From Oscillatoriophycideae cyanobacterium NC_groundwater_1537_Pr4_S-0.65um_50_18 (GTDB lineage Bacteria; Cyanobacteriota; Cyanobacteriia; Elainellales; Elainellaceae), in contig JACQYI010000060.1 in the NCBI GenBank assembly GCA_016208305.1, positions 124,001 to 188,000 of the forward strand: a DNA stretch of 64,000 nt, read 5' to 3'. Positions 2,129-17,760 of this stretch are shown here, piece after piece. How positions within the stretch are numbered: the first letter of the stretch is position 1; every line of letters starts with the position of its first letter. Position numbers and translations under genes: made by a program. Under the pieces are notes generated by a model. It worked only from the letters and a program-made list of their open reading frames with translations. It was not told the DNA's origin and did no database searches.

Positions 2129-3109
2129 TCATTCACAATACTGAAACCCTACAGCGTGCAGGTCTTCAAGAACTGTATTTATGTTAATACCTTCATTACG
2201 AAGAAAGGTCATAGAAGAATTGTTAGGCTCATTCAGATTACCTCCAGCATGATGTAATGCAACCACGCGCCATTCTCGATTAAACACTGGAGATCCTGAC
2301 GATCCAGGTAAAGTGTCCGTTAAGTATTGAACAACGCTACTGTCAACATAGGCAATAATATTCGCACGGTAGGCGAGTTGCTTCTCACCACCTTGCGGAT
2401 GCTGAATAATTTGTACAAATTCATCGCGAGCTATTTGAACTGGTTCTAGCTGAATAAATCCATAAGGTTCACTAGGATTTCCTTTAACTCCAACAATAGT
2501 CCAATCGTGTTCCTCTGAGGTTTCAAAACATGAATCAGGATCTAGCTGAAAGGTTTTTGGCGTAACAAGTTGACCAGTCACATTAGTCTGAACATCAAAT
2601 TCTGCCCACGATTTTTGAGCAGTAGCATAACTCCTAATAACGTGATTATTTGTCAAAATTATATTTCTAGCTATCAAAAAACCTGTTCCAAAACTACCAG
2701 GCACTCGAATGCGGGCAACAGAACGGGCGCATTTAAGTCCTCGTTCGAGAAACGATATAGGCACCAAAGTACTCTCTGTACCGATAATTTTTTCAAGGTC
2801 TTGGTTTACTGCACCTCGCCAATCGGTGACATCATTTTCGGTGCTAGCGTATTCCCCACGACTCATTCCAATCAACATCTCATCCTGTGGGTAACGCTCG
2901 ATCGCTCGTGCAAGAATCGAATCCAGTTTGAGTTGTTTTTTTGCTTCAGAAAGCACTTCGTACCATCGGGTTACAGGCGCTCCAGATAAATCAATATAAG
3001 CAGGATCAAGCCCTGCATCTTCAATTAGAGATCGCACGTCCCGCTCTGCTGGAATTAGGAAAGCAAGTTTTAGTCGCAGCGCCCGAATTGATTCTTGATT
3101 CCAATTCAT
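2129..3109 (-). CDS. EAD1-like domain fused to trypsin-like serine protease
   Basis: This protein has 326 residues from ATG 3109. That start is preferred over the upstream TTG at 3115 because a GGAG lies 8 bases before it. Residues 1-80 form a small helical domain of the effector-associated type (EAD1-like; ends ARAIERYP). A chymotrypsin-fold protease follows, with H156 in TNNHV, D202 in HDWTI and S271 in LPGSSGSPVF, so the triad looks intact. There is no signal peptide, so it should act in the cytoplasm. It is the last gene of a five-gene operon, 15 bases after the GAP1-like gene. In related predicted conflict systems, EAD adaptors tether proteases or nucleases to a sensor. Here the protease is probably the effector; that role is inferred. 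Confidence 0.8.
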   Translation of the reverse strand: MNWNQESIRALRLKLAFLIPAERDVRSLIEDAGLDPAYIDLSGAPVTRWYEVLSEAKKQLKLDSILARAIERYPQDEMLIGMSRGEYASTENDVTDWRGAVNQDLEKIIGTESTLVPISFLERGLKCARSVARIRVPGSFGTGFLIARNIILTNNHVIRSYATAQKSWAEFDVQTNVTGQLVTPKTFQLDPDSCFETSEEHDWTIVGVKGNPSEPYGFIQLEPVQIARDEFVQIIQHPQGGEKQLAYRANIIAYVDSSVVQYLTDTLPGSSGSPVFNREWRVVALHHAGGNLNEPNNSSMTFLRNEGININTVLEDLHAVGFQYCE

Positions 3110-3124
3110 TAACAATCTCCAATG

Positions 3125-5668
3125 TTACAGTTTGCGAGAAAGACGCTCAAGTTCTCTAAGCTCAGAGTGGTGTGGGTAACGCTCTCTTGCTAATTTAATC
3201 ACTCGATCAAGTGAAACTCTACCTTGCTGTATGGCAGCAATTGCTGAATACCATGCTTCAGCAACTGTGCCATTTACTTTAAGATCACCTGGTTGTCCAC
3301 CAACATCATCCCAAAATCCATCTGTATTAGGACCTTTTGAAAATAGTTCAACAAGAATCTTTCGCAAAGATGAATAGAAATCATTTTGGGCAGTTGGTTG
3401 GCGCAAAGCTATCATTGCGTGTAACCTTGTTAGCCAAGGCAAAATCTCGAGGGTATTTTCAACAAGCAGATACAATGCCATACTATGCCCTGCTCTTTGA
3501 TAGCACTCAAATGCCATCTCAGCGATCGATGTCCAGCGATTTTGCCGAATCCACTCAGCAAATTGCTTAATACGCAGATCTGAAATTTCCAAAGTATTGT
3601 GACACAATACCTGCATAACCTCTTGTGCATTCGAGATGTTACTTTTGGATGAAACTAAAAATGCTATGTAGTTAGACGTTAGCCTACCCAAATTTTGATT
3701 AAATTTCTGAGCAGCTTCAGTGAAACATCTGGGTTTGAGGAGGTTTTCGGTGAGTTCTGGTTCCGGTTGGACATTGGAGTCTTCACACCAAAGCTCGAAT
3801 ACACCTTTTGCAGTAGCTTCAAGAAATCCAATCTTTGCCTCCAAAGGTAGTACCGACCAAATTTTAGTCCGAGAACTATAGTCGATTAAATTTGCAGCAG
3901 AAGTATAACTCAGGCAGATTAATAAGTTTTTATCGATGGGATGCCCTAACAAGAGTTCGTCTAGAAGGTTTGCCATTACCTGATTGGGGTAAAGAATACC
4001 AGCAAGCGGATTTGCTCCAGCTTGGATCGCTACCAACCAGATTTTGCGCCAAGCAACATTATCTGAAGCAATTTGATTGAGAAGGGTAGGTTCTTCAAAA
4101 CAACAAGTACCCGCCTCCTGAAGCACTCGTTCATCTAGAACAGTCAGCGCGAGATCAAGAAAAACCTGCGCTCCGATGCACTTGCGAAAGGTGTTTAATG
4201 CCACATCAACCTCGCTTGAGCGCTTCAAGCAAGACTGAAGAATCTGATCATTGGGCCGGTTTACCACCACCTGTAGATAGGTCAATAGACGAGGAAAAGC
4301 GTTCGACTGCAAGTTCAAGTTTTGAGAAAACATTTCTAGCACAGTCTGTGCTTTCTCTCCATCGATTTCCGTAGGAGCAGTTTCATATAGCAAAGCATCA
4401 GCATGACTAGGAAGATGTTCTCGCAGGCGTAAGACTAACTCAGGCTGATTCAACCACCAATTCCATAGACTGCTTGCTAGAGCACTGGATAAATTCTTAA
4501 CCTGTTCTACGATCGCGCTACTTACAGCGTTCCTCCACCACACAGCAGTTCTTTCCTCAAATGCCCACTCGACGAATTCTCGATTAATGTTGTTGAAGAC
4601 TGCCAGATGACGATTAACTGAAGGATTCAATAATCTCCCAAGACGTTGCTCTGCGGCTGCAAAACTCTCTAACCTGAGATTGGCAAAATAGCGAATATCT
4701 CTAATATCAGCATTTCGTAGAATATTTTCTAAGGTTGAGATTGAGCGTTCCTTTAGTTCTGTAGCTTGTTGCAACTCAGGAGCAAGACTATTGAGGAGGA
4801 CAGCCGCTTCTACTGCCTGGCTAATTTCTCCTTGTTCGGCATCATCAAAAGCCTCTAGACAGTCATTTGCTAATTTAAGCCTATGAAACTCGCGGATAAC
4901 AGGCAGAGAACAAAGAAATTGTGGGAGTGAACGATCAGCATTACCATATTGGAGCAGAAGGAATTCTGCTCGTGAATTTGGTTCCCTCTCTAACGGTTTT
5001 AAGATTTTGGCTTGATCCCATCGTGCAGCAGTATTTCTTGGAGTTGTCACAAAATGCGGTCTAGGTTCTCCCAGATCATTTGGAGAGTAGCTTCGACCGA
5101 AACGCAAAATGCTCCGAAATACAGCAGGGAGTAACGCCCATACGCTCACAAGTACACATTCAAACTTATCTTGGCAATCCGCCCACACACCTGGTAATTG
5201 GTTCGTTAAAAGCGCATCAATCAAACCCAGCCTTATTGATAAAGGTGTAAGATTTGCAAGGTCAGCAGGTTTCCGCTCTCGTCGGGCTTCGCAGAGGTTC
5301 CTGTCTTTCCAGTAATGCCATTCACTTGGCGATGACTCGGTTGCAGGAAGACAATCGATTAGGATAGACAGATCATTGATTTTTTCAAGTTCATTGCTCG
5401 GTAACAGTAGGCAAAAACTACGAACCATTCCTCCTCTTGGAGCTGTTGGATCTAAAAAAGTTCGCATCAACACGTACCAGCAGTCATATGGAAACCCTGA
5501 AAGATAGGGTGATGGTGTTGTGCCTGGAGGTGGATCAGAAGATGGGCGATCGCTGAGCGGCGCGAGTCCACTTAGTCGATCGCGCATTTCTATAGGTAGA
5601 GATGAATCAATTAATCCGTGCCGCCGATTAATTTCGCCAAAGATTGCCCAGTCGAACAATCGGTTCAT
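3125..5668 (-). CDS. GAP1-like GTPase-associated protein
   Basis: This 847-residue protein starts at ATG 5668, which overlaps the upstream gene's stop (ATGA). That overlap is why I reject the longer frame beginning at 5689. The first 110 residues resemble the GAP1-N1 domain: a short opening strand (FDWAIFGEI), then DRPSSDPPPG, SPYLSGFP, CWYVLMRTFLDPTAPRGG and a leucine-rich helix. The remainder is almost wholly alpha-helical, possibly superhelical (GAP1-M/GAP1-C-like), with no P-loop. Proteins of this type were described only by comparative genomics, as partners of double GTPases in bacterial conflict systems. It sits between two GTPases and an EAD-protease, as expected for a scaffold linking sensor to effector. 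The family assignment is from memory of the domain pattern. Confidence 0.65.
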   Translation of the reverse strand: MNRLFDWAIFGEINRRHGLIDSSLPIEMRDRLSGLAPLSDRPSSDPPPGTTPSPYLSGFPYDCWYVLMRTFLDPTAPRGGMVRSFCLLLPSNELEKINDLSILIDCLPATESSPSEWHYWKDRNLCEARRERKPADLANLTPLSIRLGLIDALLTNQLPGVWADCQDKFECVLVSVWALLPAVFRSILRFGRSYSPNDLGEPRPHFVTTPRNTAARWDQAKILKPLEREPNSRAEFLLLQYGNADRSLPQFLCSLPVIREFHRLKLANDCLEAFDDAEQGEISQAVEAAVLLNSLAPELQQATELKERSISTLENILRNADIRDIRYFANLRLESFAAAEQRLGRLLNPSVNRHLAVFNNINREFVEWAFEERTAVWWRNAVSSAIVEQVKNLSSALASSLWNWWLNQPELVLRLREHLPSHADALLYETAPTEIDGEKAQTVLEMFSQNLNLQSNAFPRLLTYLQVVVNRPNDQILQSCLKRSSEVDVALNTFRKCIGAQVFLDLALTVLDERVLQEAGTCCFEEPTLLNQIASDNVAWRKIWLVAIQAGANPLAGILYPNQVMANLLDELLLGHPIDKNLLICLSYTSAANLIDYSSRTKIWSVLPLEAKIGFLEATAKGVFELWCEDSNVQPEPELTENLLKPRCFTEAAQKFNQNLGRLTSNYIAFLVSSKSNISNAQEVMQVLCHNTLEISDLRIKQFAEWIRQNRWTSIAEMAFECYQRAGHSMALYLLVENTLEILPWLTRLHAMIALRQPTAQNDFYSSLRKILVELFSKGPNTDGFWDDVGGQPGDLKVNGTVAEAWYSAIAAIQQGRVSLDRVIKLARERYPHHSELRELERLSRKL

Positions 5669-6531
5669 GATACCTTCTCCATCAACCATCTCAAGGGTTC
5701 AGAGAGATCAGTAGTTCTGGAACCATCAGGATTAATGACAAAACCATGTTGCTCTGGCCCCTCATCACGGAATGCTTCATTCACTTTATTTGATTCGATT
5801 ACCATTCCCAGTGATGACACTCCAAAAATAGAGAAATATTCAGCATCCCAGATTGTTGTCAAAAATTCATACAGCAAAGGTAGCTTGTTCTTAAGCACAA
5901 CAGAGGGTTTGTCTTGTTTCTGGGTATCTATTTCGTCCCAACAGGATAGAGCCACAACTAATGCAGGCAGTTTCACTCGACCGTGAATACTAATACGTTT
6001 TTCATACAACAGCATTTGCACCAATTCAATCATCCTAGCGTTTGAATTCCAGGGCTTTACGGTTTCAGTTGCATCTGATTTAATAGATTTTTTAGGAGTA
6101 GCAAGTTTTCCCTTTGGCGCTGGATGTGCGATTGCATCTGGAGAGTCATCAATCGTACTCAATCTCAAAAAGAGCATCCAGGCATCAGCCTTGGCAATCC
6201 GGTCTTGCCACGCTTCCGAGAATGATCGAGATTTAAGGATTTCACTAACTTGCTCTCCACCATAATCAGGCCAGGTTAATGAAATGTGCTGTTCATTAAG
6301 TCTTACAGGCAACACCAATTCGAGATGAGACGTACTAGGTGTATGCGCTGGAGTTAGACCTTGATTGAGTGCTGTCAAACCAGCATCAAACGGAGCGATC
6401 GTATCTGGTGTCCCATCTAAGCTAAGACTGTCATGAGCATTAGCACGAAGCCGACCTAAGAGCTGTACTCCGTAATTTGTTTTGCCAACGTTGTGCTCTC
6501 CAATTACTAAAACGCTTGCATGATTACTCAT
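5665..6531 (-). CDS. P-loop GTPase, DO-GTPase1-like
   Basis: This 288-residue protein has a clear Walker A (GEHNVGKT, residues 11-18) near the N terminus. A Walker B/switch II stretch follows (LTWPDYGGEQ, with DxxGGE), and a late SCWDE segment may serve as the base-specificity motif. A low-complexity lysine/alanine/proline linker near residues 140-160 interrupts the GTPase core. ATG overlaps by four bases both with the preceding GTPase gene and with the following GAP1-like gene, so the three are translationally coupled. It probably hydrolyses GTP as a regulatory switch. The DxxGGE variant and context resemble the first GTPase of the double-GTPase systems. Confidence 0.7.
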   Translation of the reverse strand: MSNHASVLVIGEHNVGKTNYGVQLLGRLRANAHDSLSLDGTPDTIAPFDAGLTALNQGLTPAHTPSTSHLELVLPVRLNEQHISLTWPDYGGEQVSEILKSRSFSEAWQDRIAKADAWMLFLRLSTIDDSPDAIAHPAPKGKLATPKKSIKSDATETVKPWNSNARMIELVQMLLYEKRISIHGRVKLPALVVALSCWDEIDTQKQDKPSVVLKNKLPLLYEFLTTIWDAEYFSIFGVSSLGMVIESNKVNEAFRDEGPEQHGFVINPDGSRTTDLSEPLRWLMEKVS

Positions 6532-7487
6532 TCCGATCGCCCTCTAAAACTTAGGAACGGATTCGTGTAATCAACTGGGATCTGGATTGCTCTAATTTCT
6601 TGTCCTTCTAGAGCGTGTTCAATCGACCAACTTACAGCCTCAATTACACCCAGAGATTCTGAAAAGTTAGCTGAAATTACGTTGAAGCTTCGTTTAATCT
6701 TCTTGCGATCGACATTTTGCTTGAGCACATCAATTGCCTGATTTTGCATAAACATGTCATACTTTGCCCAGACAATTCCGATAGCATGAGGTAGATACGA
6801 ATCGAACACGCGATCCAGCAATTTCAAGGATTGAAATCTTGCATTACCCCGGTGTTCAGGAGAACTCAGTTTTTCACTATCAAGGAACATCAATACTGAT
6901 TCTGCATGCTGCTCAAGCCAACGCGCACCTTCAGCTTGCGGATCGAAGCGATTAATAGCCCAAAGCTCAAACCATTCTCCAGGTGCGTCAGCAAATACTA
7001 CGTCATATAACTGATTACTTTGATCCTTCAATGCTAAATGCAATAGTCCTGGTTGACGAGATATCCCTCGCGGAGTGTGATCAGGAAAGCTGGGCGGCTC
7101 TTGTCCTGACCAGCGCATTTTACTTGCAAGGATCTCCCAGCCGCCTAGTGTGAAAGATCCGGCAAATTTGTAACCATCTAACATCTGACCGTTCAAAAGT
7201 AATAGATAGAGTGTAGCAAGAAAGCTAGTTTTACCCGCGTCAGATACGCCGACCAACGCAATCGTTACGACTCGACTTCGAGGCGAAAATTTTGCGACAT
7301 CATCCATTCCGAGGGTAAATCCCGTCCATGAAAGCAAGGACGACTGTTGCTGTGCAGATTCTATTTGGGTTTCTGGTGAATCACCTGCAACAAAAAAAGA
7401 ACATTTTTGATAATCAGGATTACCTTCATGACATCTAAGATTGTCGGTTACGTGGCACTTGGGCTTTGTGCATTTACTCATGTGCAT
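6528..7487 (-). CDS. Zinc-finger P-loop GTPase, DO-GTPase2-like
   Basis: This 319-residue protein opens with a treble-clef or zinc-ribbon-like cluster (C6, C11, C19, C29). A GTPase domain follows, with Walker A VSDAGKTS and a Walker B region VVFADAPGEW. A WAKYD segment probably takes the NKxD role. The DxPGE signature differs from the DxxGGE of its partner, so the two GTPases are not recent duplicates. The start overlaps the end of the upstream helical gene by 14 bases (an alternative ATG at 7481 is possible), and the stop overlaps the next start by four. The pairing of two distinct GTPases in one operon is diagnostic of the predicted double-GTPase conflict systems. Confidence 0.7.
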   Translation of the reverse strand: MHMSKCTKPKCHVTDNLRCHEGNPDYQKCSFFVAGDSPETQIESAQQQSSLLSWTGFTLGMDDVAKFSPRSRVVTIALVGVSDAGKTSFLATLYLLLLNGQMLDGYKFAGSFTLGGWEILASKMRWSGQEPPSFPDHTPRGISRQPGLLHLALKDQSNQLYDVVFADAPGEWFELWAINRFDPQAEGARWLEQHAESVLMFLDSEKLSSPEHRGNARFQSLKLLDRVFDSYLPHAIGIVWAKYDMFMQNQAIDVLKQNVDRKKIKRSFNVISANFSESLGVIEAVSWSIEHALEGQEIRAIQIPVDYTNPFLSFRGRSE

Positions 7488-8808
7488 GTTCCTTCACCAA
7501 CTTTTCAGCGAGCAAGTCGCGAAATAACCACATACCCAACTGTCTCGGTGTAACGGCAACATCAAATAAATCGCCAAGCATTTCTTGTGATACTGCTTGT
7601 CCCCCTAACGCTGCACGAACAGCAGCAATCAAGGGCTGAGTGCAGTTCTCCAGATTTGAGTGATGTATTTTGAATAGCTTGATCTCATTTAGTACTTCAG
7701 TTTGTTTGAAGTTGCTCAACCACTCATGTAGTTTGACAGCTTTGCGACTTTTTGCTGAACCATCGCTGGTGGCATTAAGGATTGCTTCACCCAGGATGAA
7801 CACAACACTTTCTAAACAAGGAACATCAACGATATCAAATAAATCGAGAGCCATCGCAATCACTGTTGCAGGTAATGGTAAGTCTCGATAGCTTGACCGT
7901 AATGTAGGTGAATACAAGGACTGCATCCACCAAAGCACTTTAGTCTCTATTGCTGAAGCTAAATCGAATTTCTTGGACCTATTAACATAGGTTACGATTT
8001 CTTGTAGCTTCTCTGAAATTACGGATGAACTCTCAGTCGCAAACTCAGCCAAAGTCTCCTCAATTGATTGAGCAATACTTTCCGAAGCTATATTTGAAAA
8101 CGGTTTATTCCAGTGAGGAGCATTAGTTGCTTGGTACTGATTCGTAGGCTTCCTCTTAGGAGCAGTCCCTTGTTCGTCATGAGGTCCAACCGCAGCAAAT
8201 AATCCATCCTGGAGTGCTGCTCGATTAACTTCTATATTTTCTGGAGCAGCAATTTCAACATCAAAATCTAGCTTCTCCCCAATTCCGATTGAAGGAATAT
8301 AGTAAGTACCAGCAAACTCTTCAGCTTTAATTGCTGCTGTTGTTAGCACCTTCTTAATTAAGCCGCTCTCTTTCCGATCGTATCTATAGTGTGGAACGGC
8401 ACTGGCATTGGCATGGTAAACGATCGACGCCAGTCTTCCGTCACTATCACACAATCTATTAACTGTCTCTAGCATAATCGCTTTGAGCAATGCGAGTGGT
8501 CGGTCTTGCGGATACACGTTATCAATTAATCGCCAAGACTCTTTCAATGTGTCGTAGACTGATAGAATTCCAGCTTCATTAGCGGAGGGCTTGGGTTGAA
8601 ACGCAACCAGAGAGAAATCGATCAGTGAGTGAGGATCTTCTTCGATCCTGGTAGATAGAGAGGTAACTGTCTCCCTCAGATGCTCATATCGCTGTTCATC
8701 TGCTCCAAGATCCCCAAGAAGCCCATCCTTAAGATATTGATCAATGATAGGTAATGCAGAAGGTTTCGAGGCTTGAGTCATACTAAGTTTTTGGTGAGCG
8801 TGATTCAA
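7474..8808 (-). CDS. Helical GTPase-system-associated protein (GASH-like)
   Basis: This is the first gene of the five-gene operon and encodes 444 residues, predominantly alpha-helical, with no P-loop, catalytic motif, signal peptide or membrane segment. The N-terminal region (about 30-140) contains an ALLKAIMLETVNRLCD helix. The middle (about 215-235) is a lysine/proline/glutamine linker, and the C-terminal half is helical repeats. By position it corresponds to the GTPase-associated system helical (GASH) component of double-GTPase conflict systems. That label is inferred from context more than from motifs. An internal ATG at 8781 is an alternative start. Upstream, 8809-9106 is an intergenic region shared with the divergent gene at 9107; I saw no clear promoter. 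Confidence 0.55.
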   Translation of the reverse strand: MNHAHQKLSMTQASKPSALPIIDQYLKDGLLGDLGADEQRYEHLRETVTSLSTRIEEDPHSLIDFSLVAFQPKPSANEAGILSVYDTLKESWRLIDNVYPQDRPLALLKAIMLETVNRLCDSDGRLASIVYHANASAVPHYRYDRKESGLIKKVLTTAAIKAEEFAGTYYIPSIGIGEKLDFDVEIAAPENIEVNRAALQDGLFAAVGPHDEQGTAPKRKPTNQYQATNAPHWNKPFSNIASESIAQSIEETLAEFATESSSVISEKLQEIVTYVNRSKKFDLASAIETKVLWWMQSLYSPTLRSSYRDLPLPATVIAMALDLFDIVDVPCLESVVFILGEAILNATSDGSAKSRKAVKLHEWLSNFKQTEVLNEIKLFKIHHSNLENCTQPLIAAVRAALGGQAVSQEMLGDLFDVAVTPRQLGMWLFRDLLAEKLVKEHAHE

Positions 8809-9766: not shown

Positions 9767-10370
9767 GCAAGGCTAACCGCTCTGGCTACTGTAAAACACA
9801 CACTGAACACGCTCCACACCGAAAAACTCGTAAGCCTGCAAAATATCGAGAAAAGAAGATCGAATAAGCCTTTAGAGATTAAGTGGAGTATGACTTCTCT
9901 GATATCCAGTCGTCTTTATTTCAAAGAAATTTGAAAGGCTCATTGCTATCATGGTTTTTTCCTTTGGCTAGGACTAGACCTAATAGTTTGAGCATCAGCG
10001 CTGTCAGGAAAATGCCCTTCGATTTTGATGTTTTGAAAGTTTCCGAGTTACTCGCTATAACTTCCAGTCCAATTGGTCCTAATCCACTTGAGCCTAAAGG
10101 AGTTTGTTGTTTATTACGTCGGCACTGTGGGACAAGGTGCTAGCGATCAATACTCTCTTTGGTATTCAGGTGGTAGCCCTAGCAGAACTGTTGGTAGCGT
10201 TATTGAAGAATGGCTTCCTTCGGAAGCAACAGTGACTTGTTCAGCGAATTTACTTGTTCTGATTTCGCTAGTAAAGAGAGTAGCGAGTTTAATGGTATCT
10301 CAAAATCATGTACTGTTGTTCCCAATTGAATTAGCTATTGTCCAAGCGTCAAAATTGCTCCCCAATTAAG
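9767..10370 (+). other. Intergenic region with possible decayed gene
   Basis: The 600 bases between the acidic protein gene and the convergent gene ending at 10371 contain broken plus-strand frames. One runs from 9883 to 10143 in one phase and another from about 10073 to 10369 in another, with protein-like stretches such as YYVGTVGQGASDQYSLWY. Neither has a Shine-Dalgarno sequence. The switch of phase near 10080-10140 suggests a frameshifted remnant, but I cannot name it. Confidence 0.25.
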
Positions 10371-11075
10371 CTATATACGCAATTCATGTGAGAAGCCAAC
10401 TCGTTCTGCGATCGAATAAAGATTAAACAAGTCGCAGACGTATGCCATCACACAAGTGAGTTCTTGTGCCAATCTTTGTTGTTTTGCAGTTGCAACGGGT
10501 AACTGTTTCACTGCCGTTCTTATACCGATGTCACATTCGTACCATATAGTAAATGCAGAGCAAGCATGATACATATCAGGATCATTGTTCTGAGCGGTTG
10601 CATTTGGGATGTCGAACGCCTGTCGCCATTCACCCAACTGAATCACCATATGAATGCAATACCTTGTTAAAGATTGTTTTCCAGCATCATAGGAATTTGT
10701 TCGCTCAAACACCTCAATCTGATTTAACTGCAATGGCTGCTCTAGTGTGTGTAATATCCACTTAGTTGTTTTTGGCGCAACTTCTAGAACAAAACAAGCC
10801 TGCTTCGGTTTTACTTTAACCTCTTTTAACAGATCGCGTACAAACTCCTGAAATTGTGACGTAGATACGAGCGATCGCGCATCTGTTTCTAACACCAAGC
10901 GAATTTGCTCTAGAACACTTTCTTGAGCAGACAAAAGCTGCTGCTCAAGCTCCTGCAAGCCCTGAAGCTCAGTAGCGAGTTGCAGTTGAATTTGTCCAAT
11001 TCGGGCCGAAATTTCTGCTGTCTTCTGCTGCCGTAGTGCATAGTACATTGATAGGGAATCATCTAAGTTTTGCAT
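10371..11075 (-). CDS. Coiled-coil hypothetical protein, paralogue A
   Basis: This 234-residue protein starts with a glutamine-rich coiled coil (about 15-65), followed by a globular domain with ETDARSLVS and a C-terminal helix (RLAQELTCVMAYVCDLF). The same plan recurs in the gene at 12029-12727: coiled coil, then GADARCLLS, then RVTQELSCLLVAVGSLF. The two are therefore divergent paralogues. Between them on the same strand lies a protein with primase-like motifs. Start ATG 11075 lies 45 bases after the stop (11100) of that gene, consistent with one operon. The function is unknown. The repeated plan suggests two subunits that could pair through their coiled coils. Confidence 0.65.
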   Translation of the reverse strand: MQNLDDSLSMYYALRQQKTAEISARIGQIQLQLATELQGLQELEQQLLSAQESVLEQIRLVLETDARSLVSTSQFQEFVRDLLKEVKVKPKQACFVLEVAPKTTKWILHTLEQPLQLNQIEVFERTNSYDAGKQSLTRYCIHMVIQLGEWRQAFDIPNATAQNNDPDMYHACSAFTIWYECDIGIRTAVKQLPVATAKQQRLAQELTCVMAYVCDLFNLYSIAERVGFSHELRI

Positions 11076-11099
11076 CCGCTACTATCCCCACGGTAGAAT

Positions 11100-12020
11100 T
11101 TACGCTAGCTCCAGACCCAATCGACTCACTCGGCAGTAAGCATCGTGTGACTCAACGATCGGTTCAAATTCTGGCAGGATTGATTGCTCACCCACAATTT
11201 CAATTAGGTGACAAACTGCATAAGGATTAGAGGATGGCAACACCATTCCCGTGATGCGATCATAAATTGACTGTTCTTCATATTTAGACTGCTCTATTCG
11301 CCAAGGTTTTGGAGTCAATCTTGCCCGAAAAGTTGCTTGAAATTTACAAAGCCGTGCATAAAGCGGATCTGCATATAGGCTTTTCATCAATCGCTGCGAC
11401 TTGGGTTCCAGTGGGTGGAATTCGTGAGTTGTGCAAAAATACCGCAATCCATTGCGCGTTCGATAAACTCTGAAGCCGAGTTGGGGAAACTGTTCAACCA
11501 GTGCTTCCAAAGCTGCGATCGCCTGTTGCTGGCTGATCGCCATCTGACAACTACTAGGACAATCTCTCGTATCTCTCCCCCTCGGCACACCGATATCAAC
11601 ATCGACAATCAGTAGGCGATCGGTATTGAGAATTAAGCAGTCGTAGCGATTGCGAGTGAGGACTGCTATTTGCTTACCTGAATAACAAATCTCACCAAGC
11701 ACAGGCTCATTCAGGACACTGTACTCACCCTGCTGTAGCTTGTACCACTGGGAGGCATTCGGGTAATCCTTGATCTTAATTGGGCTAAGCTGTGCCAGTC
11801 CATTCCGTTCTTGGAGAGACAGAACCTGTGCCCACTTCTTCACCAAAGCACTGTTGTCTCGGTCGGACTTTGCCTCCAATACCAGTTCAGTGAGGTATTT
11901 TTGTACTTGGGTTGCCGAGTCATTCAAATCTCGCCAACTCGCCCAGTAGCAGAGCTTACGATAAAGCTGAGGATGCTTGTGGACAAATTCCTCAAAAGAA
12001 CAGGCAGTTTGGTTGAGCAT
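11100..12020 (-). CDS. Hypothetical protein with primase/polymerase-like motifs
   Basis: This protein has 306 residues from ATG 12020, which has an AGGGG Shine-Dalgarno five bases upstream. The longer frame begins with a TTG at 12050 inside the previous gene. Residues 1-110 are helical. Then comes a strand-DxD element (LLIVDVDIG, D140 and D142), a basic segment with FRVYRTRNGLRY (183-194) and THE (198-200), and a conserved-looking FRARLTPKPWR (231-241). The hDhD plus later sxH-like order is compatible with the archaeo-eukaryotic primase/PrimPol catalytic core, so a DNA-priming role is conceivable. I recall similar uncharacterised bacterial proteins with the RLTPKPWR signature, but no proven activity. 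It is flanked by two paralogous coiled-coil proteins. Confidence 0.6.
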   Translation of the reverse strand: MLNQTACSFEEFVHKHPQLYRKLCYWASWRDLNDSATQVQKYLTELVLEAKSDRDNSALVKKWAQVLSLQERNGLAQLSPIKIKDYPNASQWYKLQQGEYSVLNEPVLGEICYSGKQIAVLTRNRYDCLILNTDRLLIVDVDIGVPRGRDTRDCPSSCQMAISQQQAIAALEALVEQFPQLGFRVYRTRNGLRYFCTTHEFHPLEPKSQRLMKSLYADPLYARLCKFQATFRARLTPKPWRIEQSKYEEQSIYDRITGMVLPSSNPYAVCHLIEIVGEQSILPEFEPIVESHDAYCRVSRLGLELA

Positions 12021-12028
12021 CACCACCC

Positions 12029-12727
12029 CTACTGCGGACGAGGGTAACAAAAATGCTCAGTCTGGCGATCTCGGGCGAATAGACTCCCTACTGCTACAAG
12101 CAGGCAACTCAATTCCTGAGTTACACGCCCAACTTGGGATTCATCAATCTGCAACGCCTTTGCATCCAACTTGAGCTTGCGACAGCAATCATAATATTGA
12201 GCAATCAATGGTAGAGATCGATAAGACGCAGGAATATCTGGAATCTCATCGGCGGTAGGGATGTAAAACCTCTGCTGGTAGCAGCCGATTTTCACTGATA
12301 GCCAGTACAACCAGTAAGTTTTGGGAAACTCCTTGTTCTCATCGTCAACATCCTCCCAACCAAGGGTGTATTCCAAAATTTGGATAGGAGCGGGAAGACT
12401 TCGCAGCAGCCACCTACCAGGATCTAGATCAAAGTGAATTGAATAAGGGGAATTAGGCTGTTTGCAGAAGCTTTCGACCGAGATGCTTTTGGCATAAGCC
12501 GCCAATTCAGGCGCGGACAGTAAACATCGAGCATCTGCCCCAATAAGCGCGCGAAATTGTCTGAGGGCTTCCTCTTCGGCTTTTATTGCAAGTTCCTCCT
12601 GCTGTTGCAATACCTCAAGTTGATCCTGAATCTCCTGGTAAAGCTGAGAGAGGCGATCGCTCATCTGCGTGCGATGTTCTCGGCGCAGCCGTTGATAAGC
12701 GGTGAGTTGAGAGTAAAGAGAAAGCAT
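12029..12727 (-). CDS. Coiled-coil hypothetical protein, paralogue B
   Basis: This 232-residue protein has a long N-terminal coiled coil rich in Q, E and L (about 10-65). Next is GADARCLLSAPELAAYAK, a beta-rich middle with many aromatic residues, and a C-terminal helix QVGRVTQELSCLLVAVGSLF. It resembles paralogue A at 10371-11075 in layout and in the last helix. The QVGRxTQ signature also appears in the 175-residue protein at 13781-14308. It is the first gene of a three-gene minus-strand cluster and is followed after 8 bases by the primase-like gene. Function unknown. Confidence 0.65.
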   Translation of the reverse strand: MLSLYSQLTAYQRLRREHRTQMSDRLSQLYQEIQDQLEVLQQQEELAIKAEEEALRQFRALIGADARCLLSAPELAAYAKSISVESFCKQPNSPYSIHFDLDPGRWLLRSLPAPIQILEYTLGWEDVDDENKEFPKTYWLYWLSVKIGCYQQRFYIPTADEIPDIPASYRSLPLIAQYYDCCRKLKLDAKALQIDESQVGRVTQELSCLLVAVGSLFARDRQTEHFCYPRPQ

Positions 12728-12897
12728 AAAACTTCAAAGAGAACAAATAGGGCGCATTATTCTCTAGAGAATGAGTCACCTCAGAGATAGTACGTAGTCA
12801 CTAACCTTCAAGCAGGATAAATGAATTAAACCAGCAAAACAACAGAATTTGGAGGATTCTGATCGTGGGTTACGATCACTTGCCCTTATCACCATTT

Positions 12898-12916
12898 TAG
12901 TCACGAATCATGACTA
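12898..12916. promoter_or_regulatory. Candidate HTH operator, copy 1
   Basis: A 19-bp inverted repeat, TAGTCA-N7-TGACTA, lies about 85 bases upstream of the TTG start of the small HTH gene at 13001. The same geometry recurs at 13240-13258. This suggests an operator for the adjacent HTH proteins; the role is inferred. Confidence 0.45.
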
Positions 12917-13000
12917 TTGCTTCTCTAGGACCATTGGCAGGCGAATAGACAGCAGTTCCATCATGCTGAATATTGGATCAATGTACTGAGGAGTGATTGT

Positions 13001-13237
13001 TTGGAGCCGTTGGAGTACTGTAGACGATGGGTTCAAGTGTCCCCCGATGAGTGGGGATATAGGAAAGCTTGTATCGCTGCCCTAGCCCAAGCGACAGGAT
13101 TGAGTGAGAGAACGATCAATAACTGGGGGGCTTCATTCGAGAAGCGTCCTAAGTACGTTTTGCACATGCTAAAGATGGCTAACAAGCTAAACCAGGTGAA
13201 ACAGATTATTCTGGATGAGGATCTTTTTTCCGAATAA
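13001..13237 (+). CDS. Small HTH protein, twin 1
   Basis: This 78-residue protein starts at TTG. A GAGGAG Shine-Dalgarno seven bases upstream supports this unusual start, and no ATG or GTG is available in frame nearby. It contains a helix-turn-helix-like segment (ALAQATGLSERTINNWGASF, about residues 25-44) after a conserved EYCRRWV opening, and ends with a hydrophobic helix. A second copy at 13337 shares the layout (EYCRRWV, YRKxCI, LAxxTGLS, KYVxxxL). It is probably a DNA-binding regulator of the surrounding element. Confidence 0.65.
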   Translation: MEPLEYCRRWVQVSPDEWGYRKACIAALAQATGLSERTINNWGASFEKRPKYVLHMLKMANKLNQVKQIILDEDLFSE

Positions 13238-13239
13238 TT

Positions 13240-13258
13240 TAGTCGTGATCTGTGACTA
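13240..13258. promoter_or_regulatory. Candidate HTH operator, copy 2
   Basis: The sequence TAGTCG-N7-TGACTA has the same 6-7-6 architecture as the copy at 12898-12916. It lies between the twin HTH genes, 79 bases upstream of the TTG start of the second. Its position after the first gene could also let it act as a weak hairpin. Confidence 0.45.
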
Positions 13259-13336
13259 AAAGCTTGCGCTTGGTAATTTGGGTCGCCTAAGCTGAACCCT
13301 AAGTTTGCTGTCGAGGGATCAACAGCCCATTTTACC

Positions 13337-13666
13337 TTGCCTAAACCTAATGAAGTTACTAAAATTCGCTCTAAACCAAACGAGCATCCCATTGATGGTC
13401 TTCAAAGGATGCCCTTAGAGCCGATTGAGTACTGCCGACGATGGGTTCCCGCGATCGAGGGGAAAGGGTATCGGAAAACATGCATCAACGCTCTTGCAGA
13501 AGTAACAGGACTTAGCCCGTCCACGATTAAGGACTGGGGATCCGATTTCGAGCGACGCCCCAAATATGTCCCTCGTCTGTTGCGTCAGGCTGATCTCCTC
13601 AATCAGTTCAAGCAACTGGTGGCGGCAGGGTGCGTTACCGCGCCATCTAACTTCTTCCAAGATTAG
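13337..13666 (+). CDS. Small HTH protein, twin 2
   Basis: This protein has 109 residues from TTG 13337, or 85 from the internal ATG at 13409, whose product lines up better with the N terminus of twin 1 (MPLEPIEYC versus MEPLEYC). Neither start has a strong Shine-Dalgarno sequence. It holds the same HTH core (ALAEVTGLSPSTIKDWGSDF) and KYVPRLL helix as the gene at 13001. The tandem arrangement with near-identical candidate operators suggests a duplicated regulatory cassette with autoregulation. The function is inferred from the HTH only. Confidence 0.6.
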   Translation: MPKPNEVTKIRSKPNEHPIDGLQRMPLEPIEYCRRWVPAIEGKGYRKTCINALAEVTGLSPSTIKDWGSDFERRPKYVPRLLRQADLLNQFKQLVAAGCVTAPSNFFQD

Positions 13667-13780
13667 GAAGCTAAACCGTTGAACTTTTACATAAGCACAG
13701 CAATCACTTTTGAACCAATCGGATCCCTCAGCAGCCGAACTGGCTTCTCACGGCGACAGACCACAAGGTAAGCAGAACAA

Positions 13781-14308
13781 CTAAGAATGAAGCGGGCAGG
13801 GACGAATAGGGCAGTGCTGCATATCGCGATAGATAATCTCTGAGAAAACGGTAAATTTTTCGCCACTATTACAATATTCAGAAAACTTCTGTAGGATCTG
13901 CTGAGTCAATCTGCCAACTTGCTCCTGCGACAAGGCGAGGCAGTGAACAGGCTCGATTTTGGCTTGCTGCTCCGTACCCAGCCACAGTTCCGCACCCATT
14001 GCGTGAAGTAAAACTTTCTCTTTACAGCGAGGCGGATGATCAACGTAAAGAATCAGGAGCGGAAAATACTCCGATACCGATGAATCCGTCGTGAGTTTAA
14101 GAGTCCCTGCTATATCTACCTCCTGCTGAAGCTGGCGAGAAATAACCCGTTTGAAGTTTCGCTGACTCCGGTGGCGGTAATGCGATCTCCGCTTGTGGCA
14201 TTTCAGGTCATCCCAGCAACCATCTCCTTCCACGCCGTGTAGCTGCCGCGCTTCCTCAACAGCTAAAACCGCGCATTTTAGGCATTTTTTATTCGCTCGG
14301 CGAGCCAT
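13781..14308 (-). CDS. Basic cysteine-containing hypothetical protein
   Basis: This 175-residue protein has a very basic, His/Arg-rich N-terminal third with a possible zinc site: CLKC at residues 9-12, then C32 and C38 before HKRRSHYRHR. The C-terminal half carries LSQEQVGRLTQQILQKF, which echoes the final helices of the two coiled-coil paralogues in this block. It could therefore be a partner or distant relative of them. Nucleic-acid binding is plausible from the charge and cysteines. It is divergent from the integrase gene, and the interval between them holds a direct repeat of the TAGTCA half-site. Similar cyanobacterial hypothetical proteins exist as far as I recall; no function is known to me. 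Confidence 0.6.
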   Translation of the reverse strand: MARRANKKCLKCAVLAVEEARQLHGVEGDGCWDDLKCHKRRSHYRHRSQRNFKRVISRQLQQEVDIAGTLKLTTDSSVSEYFPLLILYVDHPPRCKEKVLLHAMGAELWLGTEQQAKIEPVHCLALSQEQVGRLTQQILQKFSEYCNSGEKFTVFSEIIYRDMQHCPIRPCPLHS

Positions 14309-14340
14309 AAAAGGTCAAGTTTGGGAGGCTTATAGTAGGT

Positions 14341-14357
14341 TAGTCAGACTTTAGTCA
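14341..14357. promoter_or_regulatory. Direct repeat of TAGTCA half-sites
   Basis: Two TAGTCAGAC copies start at 14341 and 14352, one helical turn apart. They lie in the divergent promoter region between the 175-residue gene and the tyrosine recombinase gene. The half-site equals that of the inverted repeats near the HTH genes, so the same regulators may act here. Confidence 0.35.
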
Positions 14358-14431
14358 GACATAGATATTAGATAAATATCTTACTCTATAAATATGGTAC
14401 TTTTGTATCTAAACTCTGAAATCATCCTTAC

Positions 14432-15445
14432 ATGACAGCAGATCAGCAGTCTTTACTCCCTATTCGTCTAATTTCAAGCCAACCGATCTCTGCCCAAGCT
14501 GTAAGTAGCTCGGAGAGGGCTGATTTGCGATTGGAGCGGGTTAAGGAGTTCCTAAACGCTAGTAATTTGGCTTCCAACACACAAAAATCCTACCGGCTTG
14601 AACTAGAACGCTTTATAGCCTGGAGCGATAAAGCTTGGATTGATGTCACACCCAGAGATATTGCTAATTTCAAGAAATACTTAAAGGATGAATGCCGAAC
14701 TCGCCAGGGAAACCTGTTGTCTCCTGCTGCAATTAATCAGGCAATAACGGCTCTCAAAAGTTTTTTCAAGTGGTTTCAGCTCGCCGGTTACTTGGATCCT
14801 ACTGCCGTTCTGCCAACGGCAGCGGTGAAGTTTGAGAAGTTGGGCGAACCTTTACCACGGCATCTAAGCTTGGAGCAGATGGAGATAATCTATCAAGCAG
14901 TGACTGGAGATGAGGACATTAATCTGCGCGATCGCGCTTTGCTGGCAGTTTTGACCCATGGCTTACGGGCAGAGGACGTTTCGACCTTAAACGTTGGTAA
15001 TTATGATGGCATCCGCCTAAGATTTTCCAGGAAAAAAGATAAAAGTGATGCGATCGTTCCTTTACGGCAGGTAGCGAGGGAGCAGCTTGAAGCCTACCTG
15101 GAGCGACGGCGATCGCAGCAGGAAGTATTGTCGGATAGTAGCCCACTTTTTCTGTCTTACGACCTTCGCAACCCTGGACAAAGGCTTGGATATCAAGGAA
15201 TTTATTACTTTACGAAAGTGCGTTTAGGAACAGCAACAGGGATTACAGATATAACCCCTCATCGCTTTCGTCACACCTACGCGACTGAATTAGTAGAATT
15301 GGGAATTGACAGCCTTCTAGCCCGCAGTTTAACAGGGCATAAATCGGAGAAGGTATTCGAGAGGTACATTAAAGGCAAGCGATTAAAAGTAGCTGAAGAT
15401 GCTTTTTTAAGGGCGATCGGAGAGAAACCGTCTTTAGAAACTTAA
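14432..15445 (+). CDS. Tyrosine recombinase/integrase
   Basis: This 337-residue XerC/D-type tyrosine recombinase has a SAM-like core-binding domain (about 32-120) and a catalytic domain with the full set of residues: R179 in HGLRAED, H277 and R280 in TPHRFRHTYATEL, H303 in TGHKSEK and the nucleophile Y312 in ERYI. Length and spacing fit an active phage-type or element integrase. It cuts and rejoins DNA at specific att sites. A catalytically dead relative follows 65 bases downstream on the same strand, and a tRNA-Met gene lies 2.2 kb away. It is probably the recombinase of the accessory block at 10-17 kb; att sites were not identified. Confidence 0.9.
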   Translation: MTADQQSLLPIRLISSQPISAQAVSSSERADLRLERVKEFLNASNLASNTQKSYRLELERFIAWSDKAWIDVTPRDIANFKKYLKDECRTRQGNLLSPAAINQAITALKSFFKWFQLAGYLDPTAVLPTAAVKFEKLGEPLPRHLSLEQMEIIYQAVTGDEDINLRDRALLAVLTHGLRAEDVSTLNVGNYDGIRLRFSRKKDKSDAIVPLRQVAREQLEAYLERRRSQQEVLSDSSPLFLSYDLRNPGQRLGYQGIYYFTKVRLGTATGITDITPHRFRHTYATELVELGIDSLLARSLTGHKSEKVFERYIKGKRLKVAEDAFLRAIGEKPSLET

Positions 15446-15510: not shown

Positions 15511-16818
15511 ATGAACAGGAACATGTCTAACTCTGATCTGCAAAAGATTTTTATTAGGTACGTTAATAAATCAATTGGCTCGTCTACCTCAAGTATTCCT
15601 TCTGACCTCAAGCCAATGCCAATTTCGGCAGTGGCTGACTCTCGCTTAGAAATAATTGAAGCTTTCCTGAAAAACCAAAACTATATTCCTAAAACTGCTC
15701 AAAACTATCGACGCATTTTGCAAGATTTTGTATTGAGTATTACAGTTCCATTTAACGAGATTACAGCTGATACTATTGAGAAATATATTTCAAGTGCAGA
15801 TAGCTTTAGTAAAGCTGTTCGAAAACAAAAAACATCGGCACTCAAATCATTCTTTGCTTGGCTTCAAGTTACTCATCCAGGAATAAAATCTGAAAAATAT
15901 TCAACAGTTATTGGTCCTTGTTCAAAAACAATTGAAGATTTTTTTAATGCTTGTCGCAATGAACCTGGAATTGTTTACTGTACCAATATACTAAGAGATT
16001 TCGTGTTAGACATTTCTGTTCCTTACAGTAGAATTACAGCCGACGTTATCGAGTCGTACATTCTAGATAAAGGCGATGGTAGCAAGTTTCATCTAGATTT
16101 GATGATTTCAGCATTCAAACTATTTTTTGATTGGCTTGAATCTAATCATCCAGCAATGATTGACCAAAACCCGACTACCTTTATTGAGTTAAAAAAATTA
16201 CTGATATCAAATTCTGCACTACAGACCAAGGAGATATCCCAGCTTTGGGATGCTATTTTGACTCAAGATGCTAACGAATTGGTCATTGCTAGAGATGTTG
16301 CACTCCTAACCTGTATAGGATGTGGCTTGACTGCTCAAGAAATTCAAAACGCCAACGTTCAAGGTTTGAATAATGAAGACAATAGGCGTGCCTTACTTTG
16401 CGTCAAAAATGTTAAGGACTGGCTTTCGAGAGAAGTCCTTCTAAGTAGAAGTAATCAAGAAGCACTTGAATCTTATATTCAATTGAGATCACAGAACAAG
16501 CAGCACTTAAACCTTACAAGTCAGTCTCCATTACTTATTTCCTATAATGAGCGAACTTACGGGCACCGATTGAATTACGTCGAAATTGTTGCCATTATCA
16601 AACACTGGGAAAACCTTTCGAATATCTCCAACCTAAGTTTGCAACGGCTCAAAACTACTTTCAGCGCTCAACCTGTGTTTAGTTTGTTAGGGCAGGAATG
16701 CCAGGGGCGAGATCTTTCTGTAATTCTGTCTCTAGCTCATGAGGCATATTTCAAAGCTATTGGTGAAGAGCCACCTGGTATAAGCATTGAAGAACTTCTC
16801 CAAAGTGTGTACAAATAG
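15511..16818 (+). CDS. Catalytically dead tyrosine-recombinase-like protein
   Basis: This 435-residue protein has two consecutive core-binding (SAM-like) domains (about 44-122 and 138-214), each with ALKSFFAWL/AFKLFFDWLE and ITADxIExYI motifs. A degenerate catalytic domain follows. By alignment to the neighbouring integrase, the Arg becomes T274, HxxR becomes Q378 and K381, the second His becomes Q395, and no Tyr is in place (about V404). It cannot recombine DNA by the known chemistry, yet the frame is intact over 1.3 kb with no stops. It may act as a DNA-binding or directionality partner of the integrase. It is more AT-rich than its neighbour. The function is inferred. Confidence 0.75.
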   Translation: MNRNMSNSDLQKIFIRYVNKSIGSSTSSIPSDLKPMPISAVADSRLEIIEAFLKNQNYIPKTAQNYRRILQDFVLSITVPFNEITADTIEKYISSADSFSKAVRKQKTSALKSFFAWLQVTHPGIKSEKYSTVIGPCSKTIEDFFNACRNEPGIVYCTNILRDFVLDISVPYSRITADVIESYILDKGDGSKFHLDLMISAFKLFFDWLESNHPAMIDQNPTTFIELKKLLISNSALQTKEISQLWDAILTQDANELVIARDVALLTCIGCGLTAQEIQNANVQGLNNEDNRRALLCVKNVKDWLSREVLLSRSNQEALESYIQLRSQNKQHLNLTSQSPLLISYNERTYGHRLNYVEIVAIIKHWENLSNISNLSLQRLKTTFSAQPVFSLLGQECQGRDLSVILSLAHEAYFKAIGEEPPGISIEELLQSVYK

Positions 16819-17687: not shown

Positions 17688-17760
17688 TGGCTCAGGCGGG
17701 ATTTGAACCTGCGACCTTGGGCTTATGAGTCCCCTGCTCTAACCACTGAGCTACTGAGCC
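17688..17760 (-). tRNA. trnM: tRNA-Met (CAU anticodon)
   Basis: The minus strand folds into a 73-nt cloverleaf. The acceptor stem is GGCTCAG/CTGAGCC with discriminator A, the D arm contains AGCTCAGTGGTTAGAGC, the anticodon loop is CTCATAA (anticodon CAU), and the T arm has GGTTCAAATCC. CCA is not encoded. It could be elongator tRNA-Met, or a tRNA-Ile whose CAU is modified to lysidine; the sequence alone does not decide. It borders the accessory block carrying a tyrosine recombinase, so it may have served as an integration site, though I found no second copy of its 3' end in the window. Confidence 0.9.

Follow-up and report, generated by a model that had tools for sequence, protein, structure and literature searches.

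The stretch of DNA analysed here, which we call the window, comprises 64,000 nucleotides (positions 124001-188000 of contig C55) of a 6.94-Mb draft cyanobacterial genome that we label G000. It carries seven genes, designated A, P, B, h1, h2, C and INT1, whose arrangement INT1-C-h2-h1-B-P-A we refer to as the module (Table 1). As the first-pass annotation of this DNA had described, A, P and B are three co-directional open reading frames on the minus strand, and the motifs that it had picked out in P (D140-V141-D142, RTRNGLRY and RLTPKPWR) are present and conserved. It had overlooked h1 and h2, two plus-strand genes flanked by B and C, as well as INT1, all three of which belong to the same conserved block.

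Table 1. Genes and features of the module and its surroundings (positions in the window).
Feature	Position	Strand	Description
A	10371-11075	-	234 aa; long N-terminal helix; paralogue of B; dN/dS 0.16-0.20
P	11100-12020	-	306 aa with the ATG start (316 aa with the TTG start further upstream, at 12050); dN/dS 0.12-0.14
P motifs			hhhDVD at 137-142; YRTRNGLR; FRARLTPKPWR
B	12029-12727	-	232 aa; paralogue of A; dN/dS 0.13-0.20
h1	13001-13237	+	78 aa; weak helix-turn-helix (HTH) similarity, Pfam HTH matches under cut-off; kept in L019, L020 and L026
h2	13337-13666	+	109 aa; HTH-like; paralogue of h1
C	13781-14308	-	175 aa; Cys/His-rich N-terminus; orthologues in L019, L020 and L030
INT1	14432-15445	+	XerC/D-type tyrosine recombinase; Pfam PF00589, E 5e-18; NCBIfam match
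Shared DNA block (module)	10381-15439	.	continuous homology with L019 (86%) and L020 (78%)
INT2	15511-16818	+	tyrosine-recombinase-like, catalytic residues lost; outside the shared block
tRNA-Met	17688-17760	-	adjoins the module; its 3' end was not found repeated

The catalytic R-H-R-H-Y residues of INT1 are intact (R, HxxR, H and Y, by alignment). The neighbouring INT2 no longer has the catalytic Arg, HxxR and Tyr and is missing from the other copies of the module; it is possibly a DNA-binding relic or a target selector. The tRNA-Met gene was considered as an attachment site and rejected, as a direct repeat of its 3' end was not found: allowing one mismatch, this end has no second occurrence in the genome, and no 13-nt repeat occurs in 45 kb. 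A search for an empty site by way of the neighbouring phosphoglucomutase gene in relatives yielded none, and the genes beyond phosphoglucomutase are not conserved. A minus-strand cluster at 2129-8808 of the window codes for a protein with a GASH domain (PF19994, E 7e-46), for two proteins resembling GTPases, for one of 854 aa and for one resembling trypsin; it looks like a GTPase-associated conflict system adjoining the module.

The seven genes form one single 5.05-kb DNA block in two further cyanobacterial genomes, a Leptolyngbyaceae MAG (locus L019) and Elainella saxicola E1 (loci L020 and L023), which are the nearest named relatives carrying the module. Homology to L019 spans positions 10393-15439 and homology to L020 positions 10381-15428, so that the block stops within the final codons of A at one edge and within those of INT1 at the other. 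The DNA past A differs among these loci, and past INT1 the two relatives are alike to each other and unlike the window. The presence of the same block in three genomes, with surroundings past A that differ, bears out the earlier suggestion that these genes occur together rather than scattered. All seven genes are under purifying selection (dN/dS 0.03-0.21 in comparisons of the window, L019 and L020; h1, h2, C and INT1 below 0.22), while dS is patchy: between the window and L020, P and A are close (0.44-0.50) and B and C are distant (>2), and the opposite applies to INT1 compared with L019. Such a mosaic is characteristic of mobile copies that exchange blocks. The module is real, mobile and largely undescribed, and its genes exist, are linked, are under selection and move as one.

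More distant arrangements retain part of this organisation. At locus L030 the order is recombinase, C, small HTH-like genes, two A/B-type genes and P, and parts of it are kept at L026, L031, L033, L034 and L029/L182. At several P loci with or without A/B (L024, L027, L028, L029/L182 and L031) we also observed a conserved pair of small genes, encoding an HTH-like protein and a protein of about 105 aa with a C-terminal SPSRxW...EDDLEL. The Leptolyngbyaceae MAG carries a second INT1-type recombinase (41% identical) immediately past A (L019:11823-12647), and at L033:2971-6406 the P gene is split by two insertions of about 2.7 and 1.1 kb, one with an IS21-like transposase.

P was found in 8 of 36 genomes of the order that the analysis covered, with up to four or five copies in one genome, and in a single one of the 386 genomes sampled across the phylum, namely the present one. 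Distant relatives of P occur on a plasmid of Fischerella, in a faecal phage record that is unverified and on two large IMG/VR phage contigs (L035 and L036, 137 and 197 kb), where, near positions 10000-10870, the P relative is 37-38% identical and lies immediately downstream of rIIA, of rIIB and of a phrog_6452 gene. A scan of viral contigs with a degenerate pattern for RARLxPKPWR returned the same two phages and otherwise chance matches. Across 16 P sequences, those of two large phages and of a cyanobacterial plasmid among them, hhhDhD, YxTxxGxR and RARLxPKPWR are kept, with hhhDhD and TxxGxR in every one.

A and B are indeed paralogues, as had been proposed: they are about 22-25% identical, and one profile retrieves both together with their relatives. 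The claim that the protein now called C is linked to them by a QVGRxTQ helix did not hold, since the A/B profile gave no match to C at E<=10. C as a third A/B paralogue was therefore rejected, and the QVGRxTQ string is lacking in the L030 copy of C and in the Elainella copy of B; judged by these sequences, the resemblance is a coincidence. An A/B-type pair lies close to P in the window and at L019, L020, L030, L033 and L034, and 8 kb away at L029. Genes of the A/B type (E <1e-20) occur in ten of the 36 genomes of the order, six of which also have P (Fisher p 0.002). The expected co-occurrence of A, B and P thus stood in part: a paralogue pair recurs near P in several elements, but A/B are also present in P-less genomes (G033, G014, G013 and G022), and P stands without A/B nearby at L024, L025, L027 and L028. 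A/B and P are therefore not obligate partners, being associated yet separable, and the first-pass suggestion that A and B load or regulate P gained no support. In genome G012 (C23:128546-133389) about 4 kb separate an A/B-type gene from a TniQ gene and P is absent, which ties the A/B family to Tn7-like elements outside this module. A, P, B and C had no match above chance in Pfam, NCBIfam, PHROGs or PADLOC, and an AlphaFold2 model of B built from six sequences (pLDDT 64) had no fold match.

The first-pass annotation had called P primase-like. Enzymes of the archaeo-eukaryotic primase (AEP) superfamily carry motif I (hhhDhD/E), motif II (sxH) and motif III (hD/E), followed in some families by an Arg-hydrophobic motif IV (PMC5862659), and DR0530-like AEPs have Arg or Lys in place of the motif II His (PMC5862659). 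All 16 members of the P family have a recognisable motif I, as LLIVDVD or a variant of it. The motif II His is missing from the family, which has an invariant Gly-x-Arg there, and our candidate for motif III, the invariant D218 (306-aa numbering; D228 in the alternative numbering), is a guess whose position is left unfixed by the alignments to AEP profiles. The P profile was set against 326 protein families taken from fetched DNA, nine of them AEP. The best of the 326 was a Prim-Pol family, with a score of 30.6 as against 24.4 for the best non-AEP family, and the nine AEP families as a group ranked above the other 317 (p 7e-5). The best AEP match had an hhalign probability of 13% and a single-comparison E of 0.002, which does not survive 326 tests on its own. 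Against combined Prim-Pol and TOTE profiles P scored 28.0 and 28.5, where the maxima with shuffled profiles were 18.9 and 22.4, two column-shuffled profiles (about 135 over 4-13 columns, a numerical artefact) having been excluded from this control. In these profile alignments DVD falls on motif I, and TRNGLR coincides with motif II. A comparison of the P profile with PDB sequences gave no match, and an AlphaFold2 model from five sequences was unusable (pLDDT 41, pTM 0.28) and without a Foldseek match. The primase-like label, which had been proposed before these comparisons, thus keeps weak but specific and consistent profile support for an AEP relationship, each match alone being weak, and is at odds with the absent motif II His. 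We give P roughly an even chance of having an AEP fold and a lower one of being an active primase. Were P an AEP enzyme, the range of catalytic motifs of the superfamily would be wider.

It is also quite possible, if on balance doubtful, that P lies outside the AEP superfamily, in an unnamed family with a fold of its own (for example a nuclease or a nucleic-acid-binding protein), and that the module is anti-phage or plasmid-conflict cargo. The absent motif II His and unconfirmed motif III fit such a protein, as do the invariant RARLxPKPWR, the Cys and His-Asp residues atypical of known AEPs, and the lack of a structure match in the searches above; the group ranking of the AEP families over the 317 others speaks against it. 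A role as conflict cargo would agree with the company that the module keeps past A, namely the GASH/GTPase cluster in the window, dynamin-like GTPases at L020, and NACHT-like and SNF2 helicase genes elsewhere, but no module gene matches PADLOC defence models beyond chance.

The nature of the carriers emerged from the relatives. The gene past INT1 at L019 encodes Cas12k (E 1e-176) and is adjoined by a four-copy CRISPR repeat with a 75-nt period, and Elainella (L020/L023) has a Cas12k homologue at the same distance past INT1. In genome G026, a stretch of about 17 kb (L029/L182) runs from P through an A/B pair, a recombinase of the INT1 type (39% identical), Cas12k and a CRISPR array to an end bearing TGTACA and, last, a tRNA gene. 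At L034/L183 the A/B pair is accompanied by the remnant of a P gene, by Cas12k and, adjoining a tRNA gene, by an end of the type found in CRISPR-associated transposons (CASTs). At L025/L026 two P genes flank the genes for a TnsC-like ATPase, for a transposase of the Mu type and for two TniQ proteins. Cas12k is commoner in P-positive genomes (6 of 8, versus 7 of 28 of the others; p 0.016). At L019, L023 and L182 an INT1-type recombinase whose catalytic residues are intact stands 1.2-1.5 kb away from Cas12k. The DNA read at 15 further type V-K CAST loci of the family (between about 6 and 20 kb, with several short contigs) lacks the module, INT1 included, which argues that INT1 belongs to the module and not to the transposon. 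The present genome gave no match for Cas12k or for TniQ (PF06527), and the window copy therefore lies outside any Tn7-like element. Carried in some V-K loci, absent from 15 others and free of a CAST here, the module is a separable passenger of Tn7-like elements. The earlier statement that no element type could be named was half right: relatives carry the module beside Cas12k and a CRISPR array, but the window copy has neither Cas12k nor TniQ.

We tentatively read the region as a horizontally moving, recombinase-linked cassette of one cyanobacterial family, INT1-C-h2-h1-B-P-A, which includes a divergent AEP-like enzyme, an interpretation to which we give somewhat less than an even chance. INT1 would most probably be a site-specific recombinase that acts on the cassette or on its carrier, the HTH-like h1 and h2 would have a regulatory role, and A and B may form a heteromeric partner of P, with which P would act on the nucleic acid of the element.

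It is unlikely that the window copy is instead the stranded leftover of a decayed V-K transposon or of a prophage island at the tRNA gene. Its order relative to the tRNA gene is that of the CAST-borne copies, and INT2 is catalytically dead; on the other hand, purifying selection acts on its seven intact genes, neither a TGTACA-type end nor a CRISPR repeat was found beside the window tRNA gene, and the genome lacks Cas12k and TniQ. Still less probable is that the module serves as a recombination accessory of its carriers, INT1 resolving the cointegrates of TnsA-less V-K elements with the assistance of P, A and B. V-K CASTs have no TnsA and no known resolution system (PMC11406308), which is why a recombinase beside Cas12k is of interest, and resolvases have been reported in other TnsA-less Tn7-like elements (Benler et al., PMC8649781). 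The three intact recombinases close to Cas12k would suit such a function, but none was near the other 15 V-K loci within the DNA read, which rules out INT1 as a general V-K resolvase, and the window copy exists without any CAST. That P founds a new AEP family with Arg for the motif II His and forms, with A/B and INT1, a portable replication/resolution module acquired by cyanobacterial CASTs, which aids some V-K elements with cointegrates, is a long shot.

The unit deserves notice in that its A, P, B and C match no curated family, and it is nevertheless mobile, under selection and common to V-K CASTs, other islands, a plasmid and, in the case of P, large phages. The recombinase beside Cas12k bears in addition on a stated question, that of how native hosts handle the cointegrates of TnsA-less V-K transposons (PMC11406308).

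Among known systems, Tsy elements (YRec, a small HTH protein and TnsF; PMC10293859) resemble the window in having an active tyrosine recombinase, small HTH-like genes and an adjacent second recombinase-like protein; unlike in Tsy, INT2 is dead and unshared, there is no comM target, and nothing corresponding to A, B, P or C is described for Tsy (PMC10293859). V-K transposons are carriers of the module at L019 and L020/L023, of an A/B pair with INT1 at L182 and of an A/B pair at L183/L034, whereas the window copy differs from them by the absence of Cas12k and TniQ. For P itself, the best remote profile matches are Prim-Pol (PF09250) and AEP-TOTE (PF22548), which likewise have an hhhDhD strand followed by a helix and a strand pair with TxxG near motif II, and which are likewise carried by mobile elements. 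P differs from both in its invariant Arg for the motif II His, its unique RARLxPKPWR and its lack of a helicase domain, and neither Pfam model matched it. By their published description, the DR0530-like and PrimPol-PV1 AEPs offer a precedent in mobile elements for the loss of this His and for a conserved Arg-hydrophobic motif IV (PMC5862659).
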